A stretch of 25,667 nt of DNA from a virus. Positions 6,034 to 25,667 of the stretch are shown piece after piece. The stretch is from IMG/VR virus record IMGVR_UViG_3300046535_000051, positions 1 through 25,667 of that record; one strand, 5' to 3'. How positions within the stretch are numbered: the stretch's first letter is position 1; the number at the start of each line of letters is the position of its first letter. A program made the translations under genes and the position numbers. Under the pieces are notes generated by a model that was given only the letters and a program-made list of their open reading frames with translations, was not told the origin of the DNA and ran no database searches.

Positions 6034-6918
6034 ATGGCAATTCGTAAACCTTTCTTTGTTCGATTCTTTGAAGGCGACGAGAATGGTGGCGGTGGAGAAG
6101 GCACCGTAGTAGAACCTACTACGGATAACACTCCCGATACTTCTCAGGACATTAGCGATAACCCGGCTTGGAATGACATTCTCTCTCCGGTTCCGCAGGA
6201 ATTTCACGGACACCTGAAAGAGCACCTTTCCAAGAAGGACAAATACACGCAAGAGGTACAGCAGACATATGCTCCTTTCAAGGAGTTTGTTGAGCTTGGA
6301 GTAGGGCGAGACGATATTGATCAGTCTCTCCAGCTGGCGCATTTGTTCCAGACTAACCCGCGGGGAGTATTCGATTTCCTGAATACCCAGTATAACTACA
6401 TTCCCTTGAACGCGGCTCCTACTCAGCAGGCTCCCGTAGGTCAGAATAGCCAAGGCCAACCGCAGAGTGAATTCGATCTCAGTAATCTGGAACAGACTCC
6501 TGAATTCGATATTAGTAAAGACCCTCGCTTTCAGCAGGTAGCACAGCAGGCACAGCTTGCTAACCAGCTTGCAGTTCAGATGCAAAATCAGCAGATTGAA
6601 CAGCAGGTTAATACCCAGCTGAATACCGAGATTACCCAGCTTCAAACTAACTATCCCCATATCCCCCATCAGGAAATCATTAAGCGAGCAATCGCTAATG
6701 CCTCTGTTAGTGGTGGCCGCGAAGATTTGGTTGCCGCCGCTAAAGAGCTTGATGGAATGGGATGGTTTAAAAAGCCGGGTACACCTGCCCCGCCCAATCT
6801 CTCTGGTGGAGGGAATAGGGCACTCCCTAGTTCTCAGGAAAACATCGGGACTATGTCTGCTAAAGATCGCACGGCACGAGTCGCTGAGATGCTGAGAATT
6901 GCTAATGAAGGCTCATAA
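6034..6918 (+). CDS. Capsid scaffolding / assembly protein
   Basis: 294 residues, directly upstream of the major capsid gene. It reads as an extended helical protein: an acidic Gly/Asp/Thr-rich N-terminus, then NPAWNDILSPVPQEFHGHLKEHLSKKDKYTQEVQQTYAPFKEFVELGV (residues about 43-90, quoted from parts), a pattern frequent in scaffolds of actinobacteriophages. A Gln-rich helical stretch (about 130-215) is followed by a basic C-terminus containing GWFKKPG and a final helix (KDRTARVAEMLRIANEGS) suited to binding the coat protein. The family guides procapsid assembly and leaves before or during packaging. No protease domain is visible, so it is probably a simple scaffold. The stop codon begins the run TAACTAAATAA, which carries stops in all three frames. 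Confidence 0.75.
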   Translation: MAIRKPFFVRFFEGDENGGGGEGTVVEPTTDNTPDTSQDISDNPAWNDILSPVPQEFHGHLKEHLSKKDKYTQEVQQTYAPFKEFVELGVGRDDIDQSLQLAHLFQTNPRGVFDFLNTQYNYIPLNAAPTQQAPVGQNSQGQPQSEFDLSNLEQTPEFDISKDPRFQQVAQQAQLANQLAVQMQNQQIEQQVNTQLNTEITQLQTNYPHIPHQEIIKRAIANASVSGGREDLVAAAKELDGMGWFKKPGTPAPPNLSGGGNRALPSSQENIGTMSAKDRTARVAEMLRIANEGS

Positions 6919-6964: not shown

Positions 6965-8176
6965 ATGCCACAGACTATGGCTAACCTTGACCCCATTCTT
7001 AAGGAAGTGTACTCGGGCTCTCTTAACGAACAGCTTAATAACGATACCCTTTCTTATAACCGAATCGGGTCCTCTTCGGACGGTACGGGTACTCTGCCTT
7101 ATGGCGGTAAGTACGTCGTATTCCCGCTCCACACTTCTCGTAACTCGGGTGTTGGTGCCCGTAACGAAGGCGAAGTTCTTCCCAATGCGGGCAAGCAGGG
7201 TACGGCTCGTGCTCAGCTTAACCTGAAGTATCAGTACGGTGGTATTGAACTTAACGGCCAGACTTTCGAGTTGGCCACTAAGGATTACCAGACCTTTGCC
7301 GATGCTATGGAAATGGAAGTTTCCGGTATCAAGGAGGACCTTGCTAAAGACCGTAACCGCCAGTATTTCGGCAATGGTAACGGCAAGATTGCAACTGTGG
7401 TATCTGTCGCTGGTCAGGTTATTACTCTTGATACTGTTCAGCACGTTCAGGACGACGAGCTTGTTGATATTCAGGTAGCCGCTACTTCCGCTGTTCGTGC
7501 GGCGGCTATCCGTATTACTACGGCAAACACCACTAACGTTACTGTTACGGTAGTTGGTACTCTTACCGGTGTTATCGCCGGTGATATCCTTGTTCGTCAG
7601 GGTTCTTTTGGTCGTGAGTGGACTGGCCTTTCGGCTATCATCGACGATACCTCTACCCTTTACGGTATCGCTCCTGCTACTCAGCGAGTATGGGCGGCTG
7701 AAAAGAACACTCAGGGCGGTACTTCTACTGCTCTTAGTGAAGCAACCTTTATGCGTATGGCGGACCGTATTCGCCGTAACGGTGCTAAGCCCACCGCTAT
7801 TCTGACTACTCTCGGTGTTCAGCGCGCTTACTGGATGCTTCTTACTCAGCAGAGGCGCTTTACGGATACCAAGGAATTCAAGGGCGGTTACACCGGTCTG
7901 GAATTCAATGCTGGTTCTTCCGGCTCGCTTCCGATGATTGCAGATATCGATGCTCCGGCTTCGACTGCCTACTTCGTTAACGAAAAGCAGATTCAGCTTT
8001 ATCGCCCCCATGAATTCAAGTTCATGGACCGCGATGGGTCTATGTGGAAGCAGAAGGTCGATGCTTCTGGTCGATATGATGCCTATGTCGCTACTCTTTA
8101 CGAGTACAGCGAACTGGGTACTCGCCGTCGTAACTCTCACGGTGTTGTTACTAACATCACCGAAGATATCTCCTAG
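6965..8176 (+). CDS. Major capsid protein (HK97 fold)
   Basis: 403 residues, ribosome site GAAAGGA. The N-terminal LDPILKEVYSGSLNEQLNNDTLSYNRI segment is typical of capsid proteins of this group. It is followed by the glycine-rich E-loop region (residues about 35-85) and the long spine helix region (TKDYQTFADAMEMEVSGIKEDLAKDRNRQYFGNGNG). Residues about 143-215 form a beta-rich, Thr/Val-rich insertion (KIATVVSV...GDILVRQGSF), consistent with an insertion domain as in P22-like coats. The C-terminal part supplies the P-domain and A-domain strands, ending RYDAYVATLYEYSELGTRRRNSHGVV. No N-terminal cleavage domain is needed because a separate scaffold precedes it. Codons are strongly biased to T-ending forms (CTT, GGT, CGT, GTT), as expected for a highly expressed protein. 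A strong terminator follows. Confidence 0.9.
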   Translation: MPQTMANLDPILKEVYSGSLNEQLNNDTLSYNRIGSSSDGTGTLPYGGKYVVFPLHTSRNSGVGARNEGEVLPNAGKQGTARAQLNLKYQYGGIELNGQTFELATKDYQTFADAMEMEVSGIKEDLAKDRNRQYFGNGNGKIATVVSVAGQVITLDTVQHVQDDELVDIQVAATSAVRAAAIRITTANTTNVTVTVVGTLTGVIAGDILVRQGSFGREWTGLSAIIDDTSTLYGIAPATQRVWAAEKNTQGGTSTALSEATFMRMADRIRRNGAKPTAILTTLGVQRAYWMLLTQQRRFTDTKEFKGGYTGLEFNAGSSGSLPMIADIDAPASTAYFVNEKQIQLYRPHEFKFMDRDGSMWKQKVDASGRYDAYVATLYEYSELGTRRRNSHGVVTNITEDIS

Positions 8177-8189
8177 TAGATAACTAAAC

Positions 8190-8228
8190 AAATAGGGAGG
8201 TAGGGTTAATCCCTACCTCCCTATTTTT
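8190..8228 (+). terminator. Strong intrinsic terminator after the capsid gene
   Basis: A 16-bp perfect stem (8190-8205 with 8211-8226; core GGGAGGTAGGG), a TTAAT loop, and TTTTT at 8224-8228. Only 20 bases separate it from the next ATG, so there is no room for a promoter in between; downstream genes must depend on read-through or on a promoter inside upstream coding sequence. Confidence 0.88.
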
Positions 8229-8248
8229 ATGCCTGAAAGGATTTATTA

Positions 8249-9361
8249 ATGGCAACTACTGACTATTCAAATGCTAATTCCCTAGGTGCCGTGGAAGGTA
8301 AGCATCGCGCATGGCGCCGAAACTTCAACGGCACCGCCCTCGACACGTCTATCTGGTCAGCTACTATTAGTGCCGGTATGACGGCTACTGTATCTGGCGG
8401 CTCTCTTAGCGTTAACATGGGCACCGGTATTAACGAAGAAACAATCATTCAGTCTCTTCAGAGCTTTACTATACCCTTTCGGGTTCAGTGGAGTCACAGC
8501 CTTAACCAGCGCGTCGCTAACCAAGAAATCTATCTTGAAGTAGTTAACGCCGCAGGCACTACTTATGCTGGCTGGATGTTTGACGGCGTTACTAACACGC
8601 TGGCTAAGACTACTCACATGAATGGCGGAAACTCCAACCCTGCGTCCCCTACGGGAACTGTTACGGTGGCAACTTCCGGTACCTCTGTTATTCGTGAAAT
8701 TGATGCTCGCATTGATGTTGTTGACTTTACGGACCGCGCTGTTGATAGCACAGGTCAGGGTACAAGCCGGGTCACTAAGACCCGCACTACTCTTGATCCT
8801 GAAGAAAAGTATTTCGTTCGGATGCGGTTTAAGAACCTCGGCACTGCTCCTACCGCCGGTACTATTAACCTCTTCGATACTGTCATTGTTCAGGATACCA
8901 ATGACGTATTGGTAGAAGTTGGCGCCGGTCGAGGCAACGCTGTAACAGGCCGTGCTATCCCTATAACCATTGTTGCAGGTAACGTCGGTCTTTCTAACCA
9001 AACTATTGGTCTTGCTGCTTCCGCTACTTTGGGCACTACTGCTACGGCTACTCGTCTTATCGGTGTGACTAACGCATCTCAGTCTATTAAGGCGACGGCA
9101 GGCAGGCTTTACGGTTGGGTTATTACAAACCCCGGTGCATCGGCTGTTTACTGTAACTTCTATAACGCCACCGCACCGACCATCGGCACTACAGAGCCTT
9201 TTGTTCAGATTCTTATTCCGGCAGGCTCTAGTGCTACATATGAGATGATCTATGCAATTAACATGACTACGGCTATTACGGTTGCGGCTACGGATACTTC
9301 TATTCCGCGATCCGCTGTAGCACCCGCCTCAACGCTTTCTGTTACCGCGTTCTGGATCTAA
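8249..9361 (+). CDS. Putative capsid decoration or fibre protein
   Basis: 370 residues, almost entirely beta-rich with many Thr, Ala, Gly and Ser residues. Residues about 25-140 (FNGTALDTSIW...SLSVNMGTG...FRVQWSHSL...YLEVVNAAG) resemble a concanavalin/LamG-like jelly roll, in which a 'F.g..ld...W' opening is common. Residues about 272-350 (QSIKATAGRLYGWVITNPGA.. then FVQILIPAGSS) form a second beta domain of a kind seen in proteins encoded next to phage capsid genes. The gene stands between two strong terminators, right after the capsid gene, so it may be produced in large amounts by read-through. Capsid decoration is the best guess; a tail fibre cannot be excluded. Assignments were made by eye. 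Confidence 0.6.
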   Translation: MATTDYSNANSLGAVEGKHRAWRRNFNGTALDTSIWSATISAGMTATVSGGSLSVNMGTGINEETIIQSLQSFTIPFRVQWSHSLNQRVANQEIYLEVVNAAGTTYAGWMFDGVTNTLAKTTHMNGGNSNPASPTGTVTVATSGTSVIREIDARIDVVDFTDRAVDSTGQGTSRVTKTRTTLDPEEKYFVRMRFKNLGTAPTAGTINLFDTVIVQDTNDVLVEVGAGRGNAVTGRAIPITIVAGNVGLSNQTIGLAASATLGTTATATRLIGVTNASQSIKATAGRLYGWVITNPGASAVYCNFYNATAPTIGTTEPFVQILIPAGSSATYEMIYAINMTTAITVAATDTSIPRSAVAPASTLSVTAFWI

Positions 9362-13145: not shown

Positions 13146-13805
13146 ATGCCTATTGAACGCTATACACGAACCGTTACTGATATCATCACTTCGGTCAAAC
13201 GCCAGTTCGGTGACGAGTCTGGCGTTCAGATCAATGATGCTGATATCATCCGTTGGGTTAATGACGGCCAGCGGGAAATTGTAGATCAGAATACCACTGT
13301 AAATCAGCGGTTGGCTAAGACCGATGTTATTGCTAATCAAAGCAATTACCCTCTCGCCGCTGACCCTAATCTGTCTAATATTTCCCGTATTACGTCTGTT
13401 CGATTCAACGATTCTATGCTCCGGCCTATCACGGTTCAGGAAGCAGAGAACTTTGTTCTCGGGGATGGAAATACCGGTGATCCCGTAGCTTGGTACGAAG
13501 AAGAGGGAAACCTCGTTCTCTACCCTGTACCGTCTACGGGATACCCGCTTGGGCTTACCTTTCGGTTTACCGCTCTGCCTACTAAGGTAGTCGCTAATAC
13601 CGATGCCCTTACTATTCCCGATAGCTACTACTCCGCTCTGGTTCAATACTGTCTTGGACAGGCATATGAACTTGATGAGAACGCGCAAATGGCGCAAATG
13701 AAGCAGACTCAGTTTGAGAAAACGTTGGGAATTCATTCCAACCGAACTGTCACACAAAACTCTGACTTCCCAACTATCCGACTAGACCTAGAGGACTCAT
13801 ATTAA
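13146..13805 (+). CDS. Head-to-tail adaptor (P22 gp4 / T7 gp11-like)
   Basis: 219 residues. Pattern of podovirus adaptor proteins: an N-terminal helical start (RYTRTVTDIITSVKRQFGDE), then INDADIIRWVNDGQREIVDQN (residues about 29-50), a beta-rich middle (YPLAADPNLSNISRITSVRF; WYEEEGNLVLYPVPSTGYPLGLTFRF) and a helical C-terminal region (DSYYSALVQYCLGQAYELDEN). Such proteins form a ring under the portal and join it to the tail. There is no convincing ribosome site at the ATG, but the previous stop is only three bases away, so re-initiation is likely. The stop overlaps the next start (TAATG), pairing it with the nozzle protein, the usual partner. Confidence 0.7.
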   Translation: MPIERYTRTVTDIITSVKRQFGDESGVQINDADIIRWVNDGQREIVDQNTTVNQRLAKTDVIANQSNYPLAADPNLSNISRITSVRFNDSMLRPITVQEAENFVLGDGNTGDPVAWYEEEGNLVLYPVPSTGYPLGLTFRFTALPTKVVANTDALTIPDSYYSALVQYCLGQAYELDENAQMAQMKQTQFEKTLGIHSNRTVTQNSDFPTIRLDLEDSY

Positions 13806-15439
13806 TGTCTGGTAAACCAGTCCTTATCGGCCCCTTTACGGGGGGTCTTAACAATGTCTCCCAAGCCGGTGAGGCTGGGGATAACCAAGTCGTTGATTTG
13901 GTTAACTTCGAGGTTGGCCTCGATAGTGCTCTCACTTCGAGGCCGCCTATGCAGGTAGTGCCCAATAGTACTCTTCCCACAGATAGTTCCGTGGTAGGCT
14001 GGAAGGTTATGGGTATTTACCGCGTATCAACGTCAGAATGGTACGTTATCGCCCAGAAATGGACGGGTACTAACTGGTCCCTCGGCTATATGTTAAGTGG
14101 CGACCCCTCTTCTTTCGTGCAGATTAAACTGCTCTCGGGAGATAATAACAAGGTCACTGGATACGCACAGGTTCAGGATATGGCCTACTTCTCTGTGGGA
14201 ACCGCCGCTACTATCCAAGGCTTCAAATGGCGTAAATCAGATAGTACGCTGGCGGACTTTACGATTACGGGAGCCGGTACTGTAAAGGGCGATATCCTTA
14301 TCGCCTATAAATCACGTCTCTGGATTGCAGGGACGGGAGATGCGGCTACCGGCTCCCGCGTAATGTTCTCCACGATTGATAGCTCGGGTTCGCCTAAGCT
14401 GGATACGTGGACTACAGCAACGGACTTCTTTGACGTTGCTCCGGGTGAAGGTGGCTTTATCACCGCTATGTTGCCCCTTAACAACTCTATCTTGATCTTT
14501 AAGAATGATGGAACGTGGCGGTTCTCTTATCCCGGTAGCCCCTCTAAGGGTCAGCAGGATAAGGTCAGCGGTTATATCGGTGCCGCGAATCAATACTGTG
14601 TCGTGGACTTTGAGAATTACGTCTATGTGTATTCTCAGGGCCGCGTTTATGAACTTATCAACAATATCTATAATCAGATCAACCGAACGGTGAAGTTTAA
14701 TCTTGACCCGAATGGGGTGGATTCAGTTGCACCGGACGTATCTCTCTCTGTCGTTACACGGCGCTTGGTGTTTAGGTACTATAACACCATCTACAGCTAT
14801 TTCATCGATACAAAGTCGTGGTCCCAATGGAGAAGTACAGTTGGAACTCCCGGTCGATTTTACCAGCTTCCAGCCGATACCTCATCTGCTAACCAAAGTA
14901 CCTATATCGCCGCAGGAGCCGGTTCAACGCTAACCGCCGGAGGAAATACGCCGGATATACTTATCACCATCTGTGATAAGTATGAAGCTACCCCTGTGGA
15001 GACTATCACTTGTACGATGAGGACAAAGAGTTATGACTACCAGACTCCTTCATCCTTTAAGCGACTGTTCTGGTGGGGTGCTGATGTCAAAACAACCCGG
15101 AGTGTTGCGGCTAAGGCTATTCCGATCGCTAAACAGCTTCCTATTTCATGGGGCCAGCTGTCTGCGTATACCCATACCCAGCTATCCGCAGGTACGTGGG
15201 GTAGTCCGCTAAGCTTCTTGAACACATCCCTTACTATTCTGGATACCGCAGATGTAACCAATGCTCTCACTGACAATGGCCGCCTCTTTATCAAGATTCT
15301 AAAGTCGCTACGCTTTCGTCAGATCGCCTATGAACTGACATTGACGACTACCGGAGACGTAGCAACAGGACCTTGTAAAGTATTCTCTATCACTTCCTAT
15401 GTTCTGCCCAAGGAAAATGCGGTAGCGAAGGTAAGCTAG
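13805..15439 (+). CDS. Tail nozzle / DNA-stabilisation protein (P22 gp10-like)
   Basis: 544 residues, coupled to the adaptor. The opening GPFTGGLNNVSQAGEAGDNQVVDLVNFEVG..SALTSRPPM is the familiar start of podovirus nozzle/stabilisation proteins (GGLN...d..Vdl.Nfe....l..Rp). The remainder is beta-rich with repeated blade-like units (YRVSTSEWYVIAQKW, DMAYFSVGTAATIQGFKWR, DILIAYKSRLWIAG, VDFENYVYVYSQGRVYEL), fitting a beta-propeller that continues the tail channel below the adaptor. Length is usual for the family. It closes the channel after packaging and carries the spikes or fibres. No enzymatic motif seen. After the stop comes GACTAAAGAATTAGAGG, the ribosome site of the next gene. Confidence 0.75.
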   Translation: MSGKPVLIGPFTGGLNNVSQAGEAGDNQVVDLVNFEVGLDSALTSRPPMQVVPNSTLPTDSSVVGWKVMGIYRVSTSEWYVIAQKWTGTNWSLGYMLSGDPSSFVQIKLLSGDNNKVTGYAQVQDMAYFSVGTAATIQGFKWRKSDSTLADFTITGAGTVKGDILIAYKSRLWIAGTGDAATGSRVMFSTIDSSGSPKLDTWTTATDFFDVAPGEGGFITAMLPLNNSILIFKNDGTWRFSYPGSPSKGQQDKVSGYIGAANQYCVVDFENYVYVYSQGRVYELINNIYNQINRTVKFNLDPNGVDSVAPDVSLSVVTRRLVFRYYNTIYSYFIDTKSWSQWRSTVGTPGRFYQLPADTSSANQSTYIAAGAGSTLTAGGNTPDILITICDKYEATPVETITCTMRTKSYDYQTPSSFKRLFWWGADVKTTRSVAAKAIPIAKQLPISWGQLSAYTHTQLSAGTWGSPLSFLNTSLTILDTADVTNALTDNGRLFIKILKSLRFRQIAYELTLTTTGDVATGPCKVFSITSYVLPKENAVAKVS

Positions 15440-18100: not shown

Positions 18101-21100
18101 ATGGCAGATAACGCCAACAACGCAGTGCCCTCGTGGCGAGAAGCTTACCAAACGGCTATGAATCAGCCGGTAGCTTCTAATGCGTCAGATACGCTATCTA
18201 GCCTTGCTTTCAGAAATATTCTGAATAAAAGCGCTGTCCCTGTCGGCTCTTCTGTGCCCAAAAGCGGATTCGGTGCTTATGTCGACCCACAGGGGGATAC
18301 GACACAGGGAAGAAATGACGCCGCCTTTGATGCCGCAATGCAAAAGGGCGGACTCGACGCCGTTGGCGCTATCGGCGGAAAGATTTACAATACCCCTGTT
18401 ATTAAACAAGTGCTGGATGCTCTCTCAGGGTTTACTTATGCAGGCGCTAACGTAGCCGATGATGCCCTTACAGGTATTGATAAGGTCGGTCAAGGTGATC
18501 TTGGTGGGCTTCTTGATATTGCGGCTTCTCCACTTAGTGGTATCGGTAAGGGCGCTATGGCGGCTACCGGTAACGCTAACGAGGTTAAAACGTGGTCCGA
18601 TGTTATCGCCCACGGTCAGCGGGATATGGGCCTCGACCCTGAAGATGGTCTTAATAAGACTATCGCGGGTATCGGTGGCTTTGTCGGTGACGTTGCTTTG
18701 GACCCCACAACATACCTTACTGTCGGCGGTACGGCTCTTGCTAAGGGTGCCGCTATGGGTCTTAAAGAAGGTGGAAAGGCCGCCGCCGAAGTTGCTACTA
18801 AGGCGGTAAAGGATGCTGGGGAAGTCGGTGGTTCGGTAGCTCCCCGGCTTCAGGAGATTGCTGATAACGCTGATAATGCCGGATTCCTTAATAGGTTTAC
18901 TCAGGCTAAAGGCCAAGCCGCGGCCCGATATGCTGACTATAAAGCCGCCAACGGTGGCAAGGCTGTGGGATTCCAGTTTCCATTCGCAAAGTCCGCTAAT
19001 CCCAAAGATGCAGAAGCTATTGACCCTACCCAGCTTAATACTAACGTAGACGATCAGCTTGCGGGTCTTGTCCCTAAAGAAGCGGCAACTGTGGGAGCAG
19101 ACGGACGAAAGCTCGTTCCTAATGACTTCAAGCCTGACGTTCCTGTAAAGACGCCGGAAGTTCTTGCTGAAGAAAAGACTATTGCGGACGGACTTACCGA
19201 AGCCGCTAAGCCTATCGATAAGCCTATTACCAATGACCCTAAGCCAGTCGATACTGCCGTAAACCCTGATGAGATTCTTGCTCAGGCTAAGCATGAGAAC
19301 ATGACGGATATCCTTAATAACGTCCAGTTCTCTAAGCAGGCGTATGACCCTGAAACTCTGGTCAACCACGCGGCGGCTCACGAAGGGTCTATTGATAAAA
19401 CTCTGGAACGTGACGTAGAGGTTCCTACTCCTTCACCAGAGGGTAAGGGTAAGGTCGATGTTCAGGCAATGATAGCTCGCATTCAACGAGCCTCTAAGTC
19501 TGAAGGTAAAGGCGACGATATTCGTATCGGAACTATTAAGTTCGGAGGAAAGCAGGTCCATCCCCGCGTTATTGCTACGGCTTGGGATAAGGCCGTTACC
19601 AATGAACAAAAGATTGCCGTTCTTAAGCGTATCGACCCTGCCTTTGCTGACGGATTTAGAGCGACTCCTGAAGTCCCTAAACCTGCTACCGAAAAGGTTA
19701 CCGAAACTGTTCCCGGAACGCCTATCGACTTTAACGATCCTAAGCTGTCAGGCATTAAGCCGGAACATCATGGGCTCTCTCCTGAAGAGCTAAAGGGTGT
19801 CAGGTCCGCTACTCGTAACGTCAACGATATGGTTCGCTATATCAATAATGATGCCACGGATAGTGAACTGGTTCACATGGCTGAAAAGCTGGGTCTTTCT
19901 AAGTCTGCCCCTAAGAAGGATATTAGGGACGCTTTCAAGAAGGAGTTCGCTGATTGGAAGAAGCGGAATATCGAGTCTGCTAAGGCCGCAACCGCCGCCA
20001 AAGCAGAAGCCAAGACTGCCTCCAAAGATGCACGACAGGCTGTGGGAGTAGGTAATCAGGAAACGGCTCATCTTATTGATAAGGTTCCTGTGGAACAGAC
20101 TCTTATCCGTAGGGCAACTAGGGCTATCGAAGCTAATCACCAGATGAGTATGCCGCTTACCAAGATCAACTATAAGGTCGGGGATAAGAAGGTAGCCTTT
20201 AAGCCTGAATTGGTTTCCCACAGGGACGTGGAGCTTCTTCCGAAGAATGCGATGGAGGCCGGCCTAAAGCGTCAGGCTTCTGAGGACCTGCCTATTACAA
20301 TGGATAGCGGCGCTAAGTCTGACACGCCTAACCCTCAGACCGGTATCGCTATTCACCCGGATAAGTGGGGAACTCAATCTATCGTCGCTATGCACCAGTC
20401 CGCTATTACCGGTATCACTGATATCGCTAAGCAGTATCTTGAAAAGACCGGAGAACGTATGCCGGTATTCTCTAAGATGGAGCTTTATAAGCGGACCATG
20501 CAGGCTTCTATGGCTAACCTCCGGGCTATGGGTATTGCTCCTTACCTTGATCTTGGTAGGGCCGCTAAGGCCACGCACGGCGTTAACCTCGGTATCGACG
20601 ACTTGACTGACATTCTGTTCAAGGACATGGAAACCCGGTTCTTTGCTGGTAAGACTCAGCACATGCAACCGCAGGCTTTCGCTACCGGTGTAGAGGCTCT
20701 TGTCCGGGCTAAAATAGCCGGTAAGAGTGAGGCCGATATTGTTGCAGATATCATGCACGCCTTTACCGGTGACCGTGCTATCTACCGCGGCCCTTATAAA
20801 GATGCTGATAACGTTATGCGTAACGGTGTCTCCGATAAGATTGTTGGCCGCATTAGGGGTGTATCTCCTGAAGGTGAAATTCACCAGTTCGGTATGGAAG
20901 CCGCTATCCGGGCTGGCGTTAGTAAGGATGTTCCTTACGCTAAAGCCAAGGCCAATTATCTTGCTGGACTAAAGGCTACCGCAGAGCGGTGGACTAAGAG
21001 TGATACCCTTTACCAGAATCTCAATAACCGAATGATCGTGAACGCTAAAGAGCACGGTGCAGAATTGGGAGCTATGGTTGACCGGGTAAGCGAAGAAACT

Positions 21101-23626
21101 CTCGCTAAGATTATGGCTAAGGCCAATAGCGGTATCTCGATGGGTGACTTCATGCAGGAGATGGAGAAGACTATCAAGGACGGAAAGGCCGCCCTCGGGG
21201 AAGAGGATTCCACGAAGTACATGCTGTGGGAAACCGAAATGCATGATCTTCGTGCCAAGGTTATGAAGGAGCCTGAACAGCGGACTGCAAAGACTGCCTC
21301 TAAGGTAGCTAAGCTCGCAGAAGATCCTAAGTCCGAAGAAGCTATTAAGGTGGAGAATACAAAGAATGTCGATGATGCCACAGAAGAAGCTAAGCAAGCC
21401 GGGGCAGAAGAAGCTTCTGTTAACGCCCCCGGTGCGAGTCCTGATATTGTTGCTGACCTATACGATGTACGTAGCGGGGCTATATCGCTGGACGCTTGGC
21501 GGAGAATTCACCCTATCGAATCCTTCTTCAGCACTCGATTTGGTCTTGACGGTTCTGGTATGTCTCGCGCTATGGGTACTGGCCTTCATACGCAGGTAAG
21601 AATGCAGTCTATCTTCCACGGCGGCGTTCTTAATTACCTCGCCAAGAATCCTGATAAGCTTATGGAGGATTGGAAGCTTATTCAGAATGAGGGTCTTGTT
21701 CATGTTAAGGGACTTGGTAAAGATCATGCTAGTTTTGTGCCTTCTACTGATTCTGCTAAACAGCTTTACGATGTAGTGAACTCGGTCTTTGATGTGTCGA
21801 AGAACAATATTATTACTCGTAATGGTATTTTGGCTAAGCACTGGAACTCTGTGGCTGAAGCTAAGGGCCTTAAGCTGACAATGGACCCCGAAAAGTCTAT
21901 CTTGGAAAACTCTCGTGCATGGATGGAGCATGAGGGTCTAAAAGAGACAAAGGATGTTTTGGAGTTCTTGTCTAAGGCGCATGCGGTATCTACTAACATT
22001 ACCAACGATATCGCTATCGCTTCTAACTTCGCACGTACCTTTGGTTCTGCGACTCCCAAGGAAGGTCACGCTCTCTTGGCATGGTCCAAGCGGGGAATCA
22101 ATAAGAATAAGACGATTGCCGCCAACGAGAAGTCGGCTGGATTCTTTGACCTGCTCCCTAAGACGGTATACTACAGCACAGATGCGTCTCGGGATATCGC
22201 TAATATCCACAGGATTCTTAATGAGTCTCGCTCTATTAAGCCTGAAGGTATGATCGGTAGCTTCATGAATAACGTGTTTAATCCGATCACTAATATCATG
22301 AAGGCTTCTCAGACCATCGTGAGGCCCGGTCACTGGGTTAATAACACGCTCGGTGACATCATGCGTAACTACCTTGCCGGTGTTTCCAGTCTAACCCCTT
22401 ATCGCCACTCTATTGCCATGATGAAAGCTAATGGTAAGGAGATGAAAGCCTTTGGAGATAACCCTCTGGAAGCCTACAAATGGCATAAGGCTACTACCAA
22501 TGGAGAGTTTGAAGTTCACGGTAGAGGCGACGGTATTGTTATTCACGTCGGCGGTAAGCCGCAGAAGATCAGCTATGAGTCTATGTACCGGCTTATGCAG
22601 GACGGTCCTATTATGCCAGCCCATCACGGCGGTGGTGTAGCAGAAGACTTTATGCACAATGCTGATCCTTCGTCCCTTAATAGGTTCGGTAATGCTCTGG
22701 AAGGTATTCAGCACAAGGTTCTCGATAACGATACGTTCTCTCTGAATAACCTTGCGGCAACGCGAGATAACTTCAGCCGAACTGCTATGGCTATCGACCA
22801 CGCTATGAAGGGGAAGTTCAAGGACGTCCATGAACTGAAAGCCTCTATGGAGGAACAGGTTCTTAAATGGATTCCTACGTCTACTGACTTCACGGCTAAG
22901 GAAGCTAAGTACGTCCGACCGGCATTCATGTACTATACGTGGCTCCGAGGTATTACGCCTCGTATTGTAGATACGCTAATGAATAAGCCGGGCGTAGCTC
23001 TCGTCCCACAGAAGGCGCTTTATGAAGCTGCTAAGGCTAACGGTATTGATCCCGTTAGCCTTGGTAACCCATTTCCGCCTAATGCACAGATGCCCAGCTA
23101 TTATTACGACAACGTTATCGGCCCTCTTATGCAGGGCGAGGGACAATCCCTGTGGGGTATTAACTTTGCTAACCCGGTCACTGACGTTATGGACCAACTA
23201 GGAGCCGGAGTAACTCCCGGAGGATTGATGAACGGTTCTTCTGAGCTTAATATGGGAAAGACAGTTCTCGGTGCAGTAAGTCCCTTTGCCAAGATACCTG
23301 TTGATCTTGCTACTCAAACTGCTAATGGAGTTCCTATTACCGACCCCGGTCAGTATCTTCAGGATTCCCTAACGGGTTCTTATGGTGGTCTGTTGTCTAA
23401 GATGACCGGTAAGAATATTGATGGAAGCGGACGAACAGATACAGCTAATGGACCTGCTCACGGAGTAGCTCAGTCTGACGTAGCGGCTTTGCAGATTGCT
23501 AACTTCCTTAGCGGTCTAAAGATTACCGACTATAATAGCCCAGCCGCTCAGCGATCCTATGTTGGAGAGCAGAAGGCAAAGTTTAGTACCGCTAAGGCGG
23601 ATTACAGGAGGAATCAGAGTGGCTGA
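18101..23626 (+). CDS. Giant internal virion protein (1841 residues)
   Basis: The largest gene in the window. Residues about 80-260 are Gly/Ala-rich with potential amphipathic helices (KQVLDALSGFTYAGANVADDALTG) and the phrase GFVGDVALDPTTYLTVGG (near 193-210), which recurs in phage internal proteins. Residues 330-670 are Lys/Ala/Pro-rich and probably elongated. The middle (about 790-1050) is folded, helical and basic. Around residue 1408-1427 is RPGHWVNNTLGDIMRNYLAG, similar to 'RPG...N..gD....y.aG' segments of other large phage minor virion proteins. The C-terminus (DPVSLGNPFPP; NFANPVTDVMDQLGAGVTPGG) also looks virion-type. I saw no protease, lysozyme or polymerase motif. The best guess is a DNA-ejection or core protein analogous in role to T7 gp16. 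The next gene overlaps its last 8 bases. Confidence 0.65.
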   Translation: MADNANNAVPSWREAYQTAMNQPVASNASDTLSSLAFRNILNKSAVPVGSSVPKSGFGAYVDPQGDTTQGRNDAAFDAAMQKGGLDAVGAIGGKIYNTPVIKQVLDALSGFTYAGANVADDALTGIDKVGQGDLGGLLDIAASPLSGIGKGAMAATGNANEVKTWSDVIAHGQRDMGLDPEDGLNKTIAGIGGFVGDVALDPTTYLTVGGTALAKGAAMGLKEGGKAAAEVATKAVKDAGEVGGSVAPRLQEIADNADNAGFLNRFTQAKGQAAARYADYKAANGGKAVGFQFPFAKSANPKDAEAIDPTQLNTNVDDQLAGLVPKEAATVGADGRKLVPNDFKPDVPVKTPEVLAEEKTIADGLTEAAKPIDKPITNDPKPVDTAVNPDEILAQAKHENMTDILNNVQFSKQAYDPETLVNHAAAHEGSIDKTLERDVEVPTPSPEGKGKVDVQAMIARIQRASKSEGKGDDIRIGTIKFGGKQVHPRVIATAWDKAVTNEQKIAVLKRIDPAFADGFRATPEVPKPATEKVTETVPGTPIDFNDPKLSGIKPEHHGLSPEELKGVRSATRNVNDMVRYINNDATDSELVHMAEKLGLSKSAPKKDIRDAFKKEFADWKKRNIESAKAATAAKAEAKTASKDARQAVGVGNQETAHLIDKVPVEQTLIRRATRAIEANHQMSMPLTKINYKVGDKKVAFKPELVSHRDVELLPKNAMEAGLKRQASEDLPITMDSGAKSDTPNPQTGIAIHPDKWGTQSIVAMHQSAITGITDIAKQYLEKTGERMPVFSKMELYKRTMQASMANLRAMGIAPYLDLGRAAKATHGVNLGIDDLTDILFKDMETRFFAGKTQHMQPQAFATGVEALVRAKIAGKSEADIVADIMHAFTGDRAIYRGPYKDADNVMRNGVSDKIVGRIRGVSPEGEIHQFGMEAAIRAGVSKDVPYAKAKANYLAGLKATAERWTKSDTLYQNLNNRMIVNAKEHGAELGAMVDRVSEETLAKIMAKANSGISMGDFMQEMEKTIKDGKAALGEEDSTKYMLWETEMHDLRAKVMKEPEQRTAKTASKVAKLAEDPKSEEAIKVENTKNVDDATEEAKQAGAEEASVNAPGASPDIVADLYDVRSGAISLDAWRRIHPIESFFSTRFGLDGSGMSRAMGTGLHTQVRMQSIFHGGVLNYLAKNPDKLMEDWKLIQNEGLVHVKGLGKDHASFVPSTDSAKQLYDVVNSVFDVSKNNIITRNGILAKHWNSVAEAKGLKLTMDPEKSILENSRAWMEHEGLKETKDVLEFLSKAHAVSTNITNDIAIASNFARTFGSATPKEGHALLAWSKRGINKNKTIAANEKSAGFFDLLPKTVYYSTDASRDIANIHRILNESRSIKPEGMIGSFMNNVFNPITNIMKASQTIVRPGHWVNNTLGDIMRNYLAGVSSLTPYRHSIAMMKANGKEMKAFGDNPLEAYKWHKATTNGEFEVHGRGDGIVIHVGGKPQKISYESMYRLMQDGPIMPAHHGGGVAEDFMHNADPSSLNRFGNALEGIQHKVLDNDTFSLNNLAATRDNFSRTAMAIDHAMKGKFKDVHELKASMEEQVLKWIPTSTDFTAKEAKYVRPAFMYYTWLRGITPRIVDTLMNKPGVALVPQKALYEAAKANGIDPVSLGNPFPPNAQMPSYYYDNVIGPLMQGEGQSLWGINFANPVTDVMDQLGAGVTPGGLMNGSSELNMGKTVLGAVSPFAKIPVDLATQTANGVPITDPGQYLQDSLTGSYGGLLSKMTGKNIDGSGRTDTANGPAHGVAQSDVAALQIANFLSGLKITDYNSPAAQRSYVGEQKAKFSTAKADYRRNQSG
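23606..23611 (+). promoter_or_regulatory. Ribosome site deciding the GTG start at 23619
   Basis: AGGAGG with a seven-base spacer before GTG 23619. The frame is open further upstream to ATG 23559, but that start lies deep inside the giant gene and lacks such a site, so 23619 is preferred. Confidence 0.85.
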
Positions 23627-24851
23627 TATAGCTACCCCTATATCGGCTGACCCTTTCGGGACGGCCCCTAAGAGCCCTGCCGTATCTAAATATATGCAAG
23701 GCACTCAGGATCACTTTGATTCTATGCCAGCCCCGCAGGCTAATAACCAGTCTGCGGGGCTGGCTCAGCCTACTGCTCCTTTAGGTATGGCTCAGGCACC
23801 TGATACTAATAGCTCACCCGCTCAGGCTAATGCCGCTAATATGCAGGAGAATGTCGGAGGCACGTCTATTAGACCCGCTAACGCCGACGAGCTTGGCCTT
23901 AATGGCGACCCTATTGCTGATATGGGACGTGCTCAGAATGATATCGTTAACACCCAAGTCCAAAAGGCTAATGGTGCACGCACCGCCGCCTTTAATGGTT
24001 TGGGCGTAGGTAGCTCTTCTGTGGGAGGTATGCCTATTAACGGCCTCGACGGAGAACAATCGGCTAACGTTAACGCTATCATTCAGGCCGGTAAAGCAAG
24101 AGGTTTGGGAGATAGTGATATCCAAATCGGTATTATGACTGCTCTTGCTGAATCCGGTCTAAGGAATGTCAACGGAGGCGACAGAGACAGCCTCGGATTG
24201 TTCCAGCAACGCCCCTCTCAGGGCTGGGGTGCCCCCGGTCAGGTCCTCGATCCCAACTACGCGGCGGGAACATTCTTCGACCATTTGAGCGCCGCACAAG
24301 GCGATACACCGTGGGCTAGGGCTCAGGCAGTTCAGAGAAGCGCTTTTAGTGACGGCTCTAACTATCAAAAGCAATTCGCCCAAGCTCAGGCTATTATGTC
24401 GTCCTATAATGAGGGTGCCCGTAATGCCCCTACTATCGGTAGAAACGGCTCCGCTAATTGGATTGCCTCTAACACCAATAGGTATCTGGATTACGACCAT
24501 GCTTATGGCGCTCAGTGCGTAGACCTCTATGATTTCTATACCACAGGATTCGTAGGTGGTCAGGCCCCTATGGTTGGCTATGCTCAAGAGATTTGGCATA
24601 ACTATGACCAGAAGGCTTACCAGCAGGTGGCTAATAACCAAAAGACCCAAATGGGTGACGTTGCTGTTTGGGGCGCTGGCGGTAATACCCCTATGTCCCA
24701 CGTCGGTATCATCATTCAGGATATGGGAAATGGGTACGTAAAGACCCTTAGCAACAACGCTACTAGTGCTGGCAATAAAGGTTCCAGTGCTGTGGTGACT
24801 CTTTCCAAGGCTTCTTTGCTTGGATATCTTCGACCGAGAAAGCTGATGTAA
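23619..24851 (+). CDS. Virion peptidoglycan hydrolase: lytic transglycosylase-like plus CHAP
   Basis: 410 residues from GTG 23619. Residues 1-140 are Ala/Asn/Gln/Pro-rich and flexible. Residues about 147-265 form a lysozyme/transglycosylase-like domain: TALAESGLRN holds the likely catalytic Glu, followed by the hallmark DRDSLGLFQQRPSQGWG and DPNYAAGTFF. Residues about 283-405 form a CHAP amidase/peptidase domain: catalytic Cys in GAQCVDLYDFY, catalytic His in SHVGIII, and GDVAVWG between them. The two domains would cut glycan strands and peptide bridges respectively. Joining the internal virion gene cluster implies a virion-borne enzyme for DNA entry, but with a holin gene next, it may also act in lysis. 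The N-terminal part contains a 13-bp perfect hairpin (23726-23764). The stop overlaps the holin start (TAATG). Confidence 0.88.
   Translation: MADIATPISADPFGTAPKSPAVSKYMQGTQDHFDSMPAPQANNQSAGLAQPTAPLGMAQAPDTNSSPAQANAANMQENVGGTSIRPANADELGLNGDPIADMGRAQNDIVNTQVQKANGARTAAFNGLGVGSSSVGGMPINGLDGEQSANVNAIIQAGKARGLGDSDIQIGIMTALAESGLRNVNGGDRDSLGLFQQRPSQGWGAPGQVLDPNYAAGTFFDHLSAAQGDTPWARAQAVQRSAFSDGSNYQKQFAQAQAIMSSYNEGARNAPTIGRNGSANWIASNTNRYLDYDHAYGAQCVDLYDFYTTGFVGGQAPMVGYAQEIWHNYDQKAYQQVANNQKTQMGDVAVWGAGGNTPMSHVGIIIQDMGNGYVKTLSNNATSAGNKGSSAVVTLSKASLLGYLRPRKLM
23726..23764. repeat. 13-bp perfect inverted repeat inside a gene
   Basis: GCCAGCCCCGCAG (23726-23738) and CTGCGGGGCTGGC (23752-23764) around a 13-nt loop, GCTAATAACCAGT. 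GC-rich and strong, but not followed by a T-run. It lies in codons for the flexible N-terminus of the hydrolase. Confidence 0.75.
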
Positions 24852-25093
24852 TGGACCACTTTAAGATTAACGCTAAGTCCTACGCCTCCGGCTTTGCCGC
24901 CGCCGTAGGCTCTATCTCTATTATCCTCGCAACTCAGCATATGCCTGAGCAGGGTATTCAGTTCATCACTCAGTATGAGTGGTCTACTGTGGTTCTCGCT
25001 GTGCTTGCCTCTTACGGTATTACGTGGCGAGTACCTAACCAGACTCCGCAGGTGGAAGCACCAGCGAAGCAGGGCGATCACGTAGCGTCCTAA
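24851..25093 (+). CDS. Holin-like small membrane protein
   Basis: 80 residues with two membrane segments, about 12-29 (ASGFAAAVGSISIILATQ) and 45-58 (STVVLAVLASYGIT), joined by a polar turn. A hydrophilic tail begins with WRVPNQTPQ. This size and the 'T.RVPN' ending of the second helix are typical of actinobacteriophage holins that open the membrane to release endolysin. Placement directly after a two-domain hydrolase, with coupled start (TAATG), supports a lysis function. It is the last gene before a terminator. It could alternatively help virion-associated envelope penetration, but holin is the better fit. Confidence 0.7.
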   Translation: MDHFKINAKSYASGFAAAVGSISIILATQHMPEQGIQFITQYEWSTVVLAVLASYGITWRVPNQTPQVEAPAKQGDHVAS

Positions 25094-25122
25094 CTGCCCT
25101 GTAAAGTGCCCTAGACGCCCTG

Positions 25123-25153
25123 AAGGCCGGTAGCTCTCTGAGCTACCGGCCTT
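25123..25153 (+). terminator. Hairpin terminator at end of late block
   Basis: A 14-bp perfect stem (25123-25136 with 25140-25153; GGCCGGTAGCTC core) with a three-base loop TCT. Only a weak T-rich stretch (CCCTTTGATT) follows, so it may be an attenuator or rely on stem strength. It separates the holin from the WhiB-like gene. Confidence 0.65.
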
Positions 25154-25249
25154 ACCCTTTGATTCTATAACTACTTCGGGACAGAGCGCAAGCCCAAAGC
25201 ACTACTTGTTTTTGACCCTTGACACATGCCGGACTACTTGGTTCCCGAC

Positions 25250-25278
25250 TTGCCACTACTCTATGCCACGGTTAAGAT
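25250..25278 (+). promoter_or_regulatory. Promoter candidate for the WhiB-like gene
   Basis: TTGCCA (25250-25255, five of six matching TTGACA), a 17-bp spacer, then TAAGAT (25273-25278, four of six matching TATAAT). The predicted start of transcription falls at or next to the ATG at 25285, which would make the mRNA leaderless. Unproven. Confidence 0.45.
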
Positions 25279-25284
25279 GATGCT

Positions 25285-25667
25285 ATGGGAATAGGGGACG
25301 CTCCAGCGGTGACTGGACGCAAACGGTCTGAATGGTCACAAGAGGGAAGATGCAATGACTTCCCCCGGTTGTTTACCGGAGATGAATCAAAGGGGAGGAT
25401 GGAGCTAACACGGCCTATATGTGCCGCGTGCCCGGTGGCAAATGAATGCCTTAACTATGCCGTAGCACACGATATGTGGGGCATTTGGGCCGGTACAACA
25501 ACTAGAAGTCGAAGAGCGATTCCAAAAGATCAACAGCTTCTAATGATTGCTCAGGTTCCTGAGATTGAACCTTCTTTTCAGAGTTATCTGAAGAAGGAGG
25601 AACCGACTGTTCTAGTGAAGCCAAAGAAGATAAGCTTTCCAGTCGGCGCTCCAAAGGTTCTGGCGAA
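25285..25667 (+). CDS. WhiB-family transcriptional regulator (3' partial)
   Basis: 127 codons plus two bases are visible before the window ends. The [4Fe-4S] ligands are Cys23, Cys46, Cys49 and Cys55, with the usual C-X2-C-X5-C spacing. They are followed by the family turn GIWAG at residues 66-70 and a basic patch (TTTRSRRAIPKD). Trp17 and the NDFPRLFTGDES segment also fit the family. WhiB proteins bind the principal sigma factor and regulate transcription; in mycobacteriophage TM4 a phage WhiB affects host septation genes and superinfection. After residue 80 there is a long tail with basic patches (LKKEEPTVLVKPKKISF) of unknown use, still open at the edge. There is no ribosome site near the ATG, fitting a leaderless message from the promoter candidate just upstream. 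Confidence 0.92.
   Translation, partial: MGIGDAPAVTGRKRSEWSQEGRCNDFPRLFTGDESKGRMELTRPICAACPVANECLNYAVAHDMWGIWAGTTTRSRRAIPKDQQLLMIAQVPEIEPSFQSYLKKEEPTVLVKPKKISFPVGAPKVLA

Follow-up and report, generated by a model that had tools for sequence, protein, structure and literature searches.

A probable old antisense coding overlap at a putatively leaderless whiB gene in a Jasmine-related phage

Genes and features of the whiB locus

The window analyzed here is the entire virus record IMGVR_UViG_3300046535_000051, a linear record of 25,667 bases that is probably incomplete. Its genes include those for a terminase, a P22-type portal, a major head protein, a tail spike, and a lysin (Pfam or PHROG matches), and among the phages of the collection it is closest to Jasmine, Adat/Brad, and Casserole, which infect Arthrobacter; a published description places Jasmine with the podoviruses (PMC5513430). 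As shown in Table 1, the right end of the window holds the last gene of a rightward late block, a terminator-like hairpin, a promoter, and a whiB gene, the frame of which runs for 127 codons and then off the record end. On the other strand, the 3' end of a zinc-finger gene faces the last part of whiB. Neither Pfam nor PHROG matched the product of the late-block gene itself, which is labeled a holin by position only. Further upstream, the lysin gene (23559-24851) encodes a protein with a C-terminal CHAP domain, residues 102-282 of which match a tape-measure-type PHROG (E 6.4e-35); this suggests a virion-associated or fused origin of the lysin. Before it lies a frame of 1841 aa (18101-23626) with no Pfam match, which occupies the place of a 5.4-kb hypothetical gene in Jasmine.

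Table 1. Coordinates of the features at the locus, numbered from the first base of the window
Feature	Position	Strand	Basis or remark
Last rightward late-block gene, 80 aa	24851..25093	+	In the place of the annotated holin in Jasmine, Brad, and Casserole
Terminator-like hairpin (14-bp perfect stem, 3-base loop, weak T tract)	25123..25153	+	RNA fold
-35 box TTGCCA	25250..25255	+	Read in the sequence; 17-base spacer to the -10 box
-10 box TAAGAT	25273..25278	+	Six bases before the ATG at 25285
whiB coding region, cut by the record end	25285..25667	+	Pfam Whib; PHROG 31604, E 1.6e-37
Four cluster cysteines, codons 23, 46, 49, and 55	25351-25353, 25420-25422, 25429-25431, 25447-25449	+	Alignment
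GIWAG turn, codons 66-70	25480..25494	+	One-residue variant of the family motif G[V/I]WGG
Antisense zinc-finger gene, 3' end (stop 25502-25504 and last 54 residues), cut by the record end	25502..25667	-	Sequence

WhiB genes are reported to be common in phages (PMC8612146), and the WhiB of phage TM4 is reported as a repressor of the host whiB2 (PMC8612146, PMC6282962). The protein encoded in the window matches Pfam Whib at E 2.2e-12, with 47.8 bits against a cut-off of 23.6. Cysteines C23, C46, C49, and C55 are invariant in all 20 aligned WhiB proteins, and G66, W68, and G70 of the turn, which in the family reads G[V/I]WGG (PMC6282962), are present in at least 90% of these 20. In a structure model computed for a relative (L031, 19 sequences), the core is confident, residues 122-154 are disordered (pLDDT below 50), and residues 157-178 form a helix (block pLDDT 55-74). 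The top Foldseek matches of the model were WhiB1, WhiB3, and Streptomyces WhiB complexes, and the profile matches agreed. Thus, the protein resembles the WhiB-like (Wbl) regulators in its four cysteines, its G[V/I]W turn, its Pfam match, and its fold, which matches WhiB1 and WhiB3 solved with sigma-A region 4 and Streptomyces WhiB in an RNA polymerase complex. As judged from the cysteines and the family, the core would hold an iron-sulfur cluster, and binding of region 4 of the host principal sigma factor is plausible because the fold matches WhiB proteins solved together with sigma-A region 4.

Unlike the known Wbl regulators, the protein has a tail of ~100 residues that carries a helix at its C-terminus and whose coding DNA is also used, on the opposite strand, by another gene. 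The full sequence of this tail, which the initial annotation had sought, is available from a relative (L002) whose WhiB has 183 aa and is identical over the shared 127 aa. The same annotation had described the tail as extended and basic. The part visible in the window is indeed mildly basic, with a net charge of +2, but the basicity is not conserved: the net charge ranges from -9 to +4 over 20 loci, which rules out basic charge as the key feature of the tail. The recurrent features of the WhiB tails are a linker, a C-terminal hydrophobic or helical segment, and the sharing of their DNA with a second gene in antisense. The tail is, in other words, a flexible linker followed by a C-terminal helix and is not consistently basic.

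Transcription unit and start of whiB

From the sequence of the window alone, whiB had been proposed to form a transcription unit of its own behind the late block, and the proposal is supported by the 14-bp hairpin and by the gene directions in Jasmine. The hairpin, which sits between the lysis gene and the whiB promoter, folds at -27.4 kcal/mol (z -6.5). Perfect stems of at least 12 bp were found upstream of whiB in 8 of the 20 loci examined, the bases of which partly differ yet still pair; among single-base shuffles, stems of at least 9 arose in 7 of 1000. In Jasmine, the annotated genes past whiB, including those for Lsr2, a helicase, a primase/helicase, and a polymerase, all run leftward. 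Together, the hairpin and these gene directions indicate that whiB is a rightward unit where two blocks meet; the hairpin would close the late block, and the whiB promoter would follow just past it. As initially proposed, whiB may be an early gene whose product redirects the host sigma factor.

The DNA between the late block and whiB carries further features. The sequence ACTACTTG is found twice 5' of the whiB promoter, at 25201-25208 and 25233-25240, 32 bases apart; both copies are found in L004 too and are not obvious in Jasmine, and the pair could be a binding site or chance. In L091, the hairpin ends 17 bases before the whiB start and overlaps the -35 region, such that terminator and promoter share DNA.

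Leaderless messages are common in Actinobacteria, and the start of whiB is like theirs in that a -10 box lies 6-7 bases ahead of the ATG and a ribosome site is absent. The promoter read at the outset, TTGCCA and TAAGAT separated by 17 bases and ending six bases before the ATG, was recovered at the positions given in Table 1, and the absence of a ribosome site before the ATG was borne out, the best complement in range being TGAT, 3 bases from the ATG. A consensus promoter scan of positions 23000-25667 returned 2 promoter-like sites compared with 2.7 in shuffles. Because the hexamers alone are not above chance, the argument from the scan was dropped, and only placement and conservation were used for the promoter.

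With respect to placement, whiB is alone among the 24 window genes examined, the starts of which were our choice, in carrying TAnnnT 5-8 bases before its start, and 19 of the 23 others have a ribosome-site complement of at least 4 bases. Unlike the situation in actinobacterial leaderless mRNAs generally, the trait is thus confined to one gene here. Similarly, the compared parts of Brad, Jasmine, and Casserole contain 44 annotated genes that are not cut; only 3 of these have TAnnnT at this distance, and all three are whiB. With respect to conservation, all 11 close sequences (the window and ten others) have an identical -10 box, six bases from the ATG in each, whereas their -35 box varies at constant spacing (TTGCCA, TTGCGC, or TTGCTA). 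We then counted TAnnnT in 26 whiB lineages found by profile, obtained from 50 loci (including Cellulosimicrobium phage DS1) by dropping any locus with a similarity above 90% to one retained before it, and took in every candidate start preceding the conserved tryptophan (44 candidate starts). In 17 of the 26 lineages, TAnnnT lies 6-7 bases before a candidate start; by comparison, it stands at such a distance before 15 of 717 window ATGs, which gives an expectation of ~1 among 44 starts, the lineages being related. The full TTGACA is found 16-19 bases upstream of the -10 box in L072, L081, L085, and L097; the -10 box of L081 reads TACATA, and L081 is therefore outside the 17. Nine of the 26 lineages are without TAnnnT at 5-8 bases, and some of these carry ribosome-site-like bases instead.

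It is unlikely, in our estimation, that the whiB transcript starts further upstream, from the TTGACC/TTGACA sequences near 25212-25224, and has a leader, with TAAGAT being coincidental. TTGAC boxes are present upstream in the window, and the whiB genes of L041, L080, and L088 appear leadered, with ribosome-site-like bases. However, the upstream boxes have no good -10 box by eye in the window, and the scan lists none; moreover, the whiB ATG is not preceded by a ribosome site, and the distance from the -10 box to the ATG is conserved while nearby bases vary. Overall, the leaderless reading put forward in the initial annotation gains from the comparison across lineages, and a leaderless whiB mRNA in its own unit, which we deduce from the conserved spacing and the missing ribosome site, is well supported. 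A host-type promoter at this place would start the transcript at, or a base or two from, the whiB ATG. The leaderless start looks selectively kept while the neighboring genes use ribosome sites.

The antisense overlap and selection on its two frames

In relatives in which both genes are full length, the last ~110 codons of whiB are antisense to the 3' half of the zinc-finger gene, which ends the leftward replication block. The deposited Jasminevirus annotation already shows the overlap: in Brad, Jasmine, and Casserole, whiB is annotated at 7971-8516 on one strand of the fetched locus, and a hypothetical gene is annotated on the opposite strand, at 8182-8859 in Brad and Jasmine and at 8179-8859 in Casserole. 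The present analysis adds the age of the overlap, the single phase in which it occurs, and the finding that both frames are selected. The minus-strand frame is also present in L008 and in L002, where the gene is full length (6218-6889, minus strand) and encodes a protein of 223 aa that belongs to PHROG family 32248, of unknown function.

Four cysteines are invariant in all 19 aligned zinc-finger proteins. The model of the protein has a moderately confident core up to about residue 134, a tail at residues 147-217 with pLDDT under 50, and a short helix at residues 214-221 of low confidence. Matches to MYND (19.7 bits) and NinG (14.8 bits) are below the respective cut-offs of 22.7 and 25.4, and the YacG fold aligns with Z 2.5 over 38 residues (rmsd 3.8). 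Upon rechecking, the best Foldseek match reached Z 2.8, and the profile matches to solved structures were weak, the best at E 0.099. The MYND, NinG, and YacG identities are leads only.

To describe how far the arrangement extends, we give counts from two samples. Among the best 80 of 185 polymerase loci, many of them on contigs that are fragments, whiB was found in 36, the second gene in 29, and both in 27; in all 27 contigs with both, the two genes are on opposite strands. Among the 26 whiB lineages, the second gene was detected in 21 and undetected in 5 (L054, L056, L099, L100, and L102). In 20 of these 21, the genes overlap, by 104-401 nt, and all 20 overlaps are in one phase, in which codon position 1 faces position 1 and the third position faces the second. 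We describe the phase in this way and not by a published frame label because papers disagree in their use of such labels (PMC8903798). That the 20 overlaps have one phase is due to common descent and does not amount to 20 independent events. In the remaining lineage, L097, both genes are present with a gap of 183 nt, and this may show a state without the overlap. As far as comparison of sequences can tell, the overlap is an old tail-to-tail antisense coding overlap.

Two groups of relatives offer observations of their own. Cellulosimicrobium phage DS1 (MW590223.1, in L030) has an unannotated whiB at 13798-14226 that overlaps an annotated hypothetical gene on the other strand (14033-14641) in the same phase as the other pairs; the second ATG of this whiB (13807) has TACCAT seven bases upstream, and the DS1 antisense protein as sole query returned no relatives among viral contigs. 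L047, L048, L056, and L093 are mutual close relatives in which whiB is present and no match to the zinc-finger gene was found; in L047, a RuvC-like frame (7372-7893 in the reversed locus, minus strand) lies directly past the end of whiB.

We compared the substitutions between L002 and L004 inside and outside the overlap. In the part that codes for whiB only, the changes at codon positions 1, 2, and 3 number 1, 3, and 28 (28 of 32 at the third position), and in the part belonging to the second gene only, 41 of 68 changes are at the third positions of that gene. Within the overlap, the 40 changes are distributed as 8, 17, and 15 on whiB positions 1, 2, and 3. The dS falls from 0.718 outside to 0.154 inside the overlap for the whiB frame and from 0.624 to 0.214 for the second-gene frame. 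In a single-frame null, the overlap was simulated under selection on one frame alone, the strength of which was taken from the parts beyond the overlap, and with an assumed transition bias of 2; for this pair, 0 of 3000 runs of either null reached the observed amino-acid conservation. The comparison of L003 with L004 agrees, these pairs not being independent. In three Jasminevirus pairs, P was 0.0003 or less in all three for the whiB frame and <1/3000, 0.013, and 0.056 for the second-gene frame, the last from Brad versus Jasmine. Over five pairs from two phage groups, 9 of the 10 one-sided P values are thus 0.013 or lower, and one is marginal at 0.056. Taken together, the substitution patterns show, on the evidence of these aligned genes, that both frames are under purifying selection.

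The open frames were also examined by recoding one gene with random synonymous codons and scoring the length of the other open frame. Start codons were our choice in this test, and the 20 loci include the near relatives L031/L032, L038/L039, and L041/L046. The open run was longer than in the recoded controls (P <0.05) at 15 of 20 loci for whiB and at 13 of 20 for the second gene; P 0.05 was missed at 5 and 7 loci, respectively, and L088 clearly fails both.

These results bear on whether only one of the genes codes in the overlap. It is very improbable that the zinc-finger gene alone does so, with the WhiB tail a passive read-through to a chance stop and its conservation borrowed: solved WhiB chains are short (76-126 aa), the tail being unneeded for the family function, and the whiB open run missed significance at the five loci mentioned, but in simulations with only the second frame selected, P for the whiB frame did not exceed 0.0003 in any of the 5 pairs. 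Further, the ending of the WhiB tail is common to L091, in which the overlap is present, and L047, although no zinc-finger match was found in the latter. The reverse, that whiB alone codes and the C-terminal tail of the zinc-finger protein is passive, we hold to be just as improbable. It could draw on the predicted disorder of that tail, on the seven loci at which the second-gene run was not above the controls, and on the one marginal pair; against this, P for the second-gene frame was <1/3000 in three of the five pairs (0.013 and 0.056 in the others), and a conserved helix of the zinc-finger protein (residues 116-133) falls within the overlap. Very improbable, too, is that an RNA or DNA element, such as an antisense RNA or a binding site, and not a pair of proteins, is what preserves the overlap. 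Such an element could likewise suppress synonymous change in both frames; against it, both frames are open and in one phase despite overlap lengths of 104-401 nt, and for the number of substitutions each frame shows a specific shortage of amino-acid changes.

Expression and significance of the overlapping genes

The explanation that we favor, and regard as likely to hold as a whole, is that the rightward late block of a Jasmine-related phage here meets its leftward replication block, that a leaderless whiB unit overlaps the last gene of the replication block in antisense, with selection on both frames, and that the two genes probably restrain one another. The host sigma-A polymerase would transcribe whiB, and WhiB, as expected from its family, would bind region 4 of the principal sigma factor of the host. 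The overlapping part of each protein would be mostly flexible linker plus a short C-terminal helix or motif, and since such linkers and end segments occupy most of the DNA used twice, the double use is probably tolerable. The whiB message and the leftward message would share ~330 complementary bases, and the polymerases would converge; expression of whiB and expression of the last part of the replication operon would therefore probably hold each other down.

A stronger version, which is possible but which we consider doubtful, is that the overlap is an old cis-antisense switch through which the leftward replication operon and the leaderless whiB unit exclude each other's transcription; switches of this kind are discussed in PMC12720443 and PMC4519249. 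If so, the phage would alternate between replication and a state directed by WhiB, and the same 100-400 bases would be preserved across a whole group of actinobacterial phages by selection that acts both on two proteins and on two complementary messages.

Like olg1 and olg2 opposite gene 10 of Pseudomonas phage Fc02 (PMC9936078) and E. coli pop, described as wholly embedded antisense to ompA (PMC7103648), the whiB pair has two frames on opposite strands of one DNA stretch, an arrangement surveyed in PMC7017920. Unlike those, it is a partial, tail-to-tail overlap between a regulator and a second conserved gene, found in 20 lineages in one phase and with evidence of selection on both frames. Antisense overlaps of at least 50 nt are reported for 21 of 347 Podoviridae reference genomes (PMC7017920), antisense frames are given as 6.6% of viral overlaps (PMC8903798), and the antisense proteins reported so far are described as typically rather young and little studied even in viruses (PMC7457138). 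No open-access paper found by our searches describes the whiB overlap in its title or abstract opening, nor is it mentioned in the portions of PMC8612146 and PMC5513430 consulted, which is weak evidence of its absence from the literature. The present overlap pairs a recognized regulator with a conserved second gene and includes the cultured phages Jasmine, Brad, and Casserole; it makes old, doubly selected antisense overlaps, and the expression of two converging genes on one DNA, open to experiment.

The ends of the proteins encoded at the junction share a feature. Hydrophobic-acidic tips (LLESLFDF, LEDLFADL, LDDFLEMF, and LDDFLNL) are found in the zinc-finger protein and in the product of the second gene upstream of it (L002, 6218-6889 and 7257-7697; L010, 8182-8859 and 8870-9259; all on the minus strand), and WhiB ends near LDQLLL. 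These tips are reminiscent of short C-terminal docking peptides, such as SSB tips or clamp-binding motifs.
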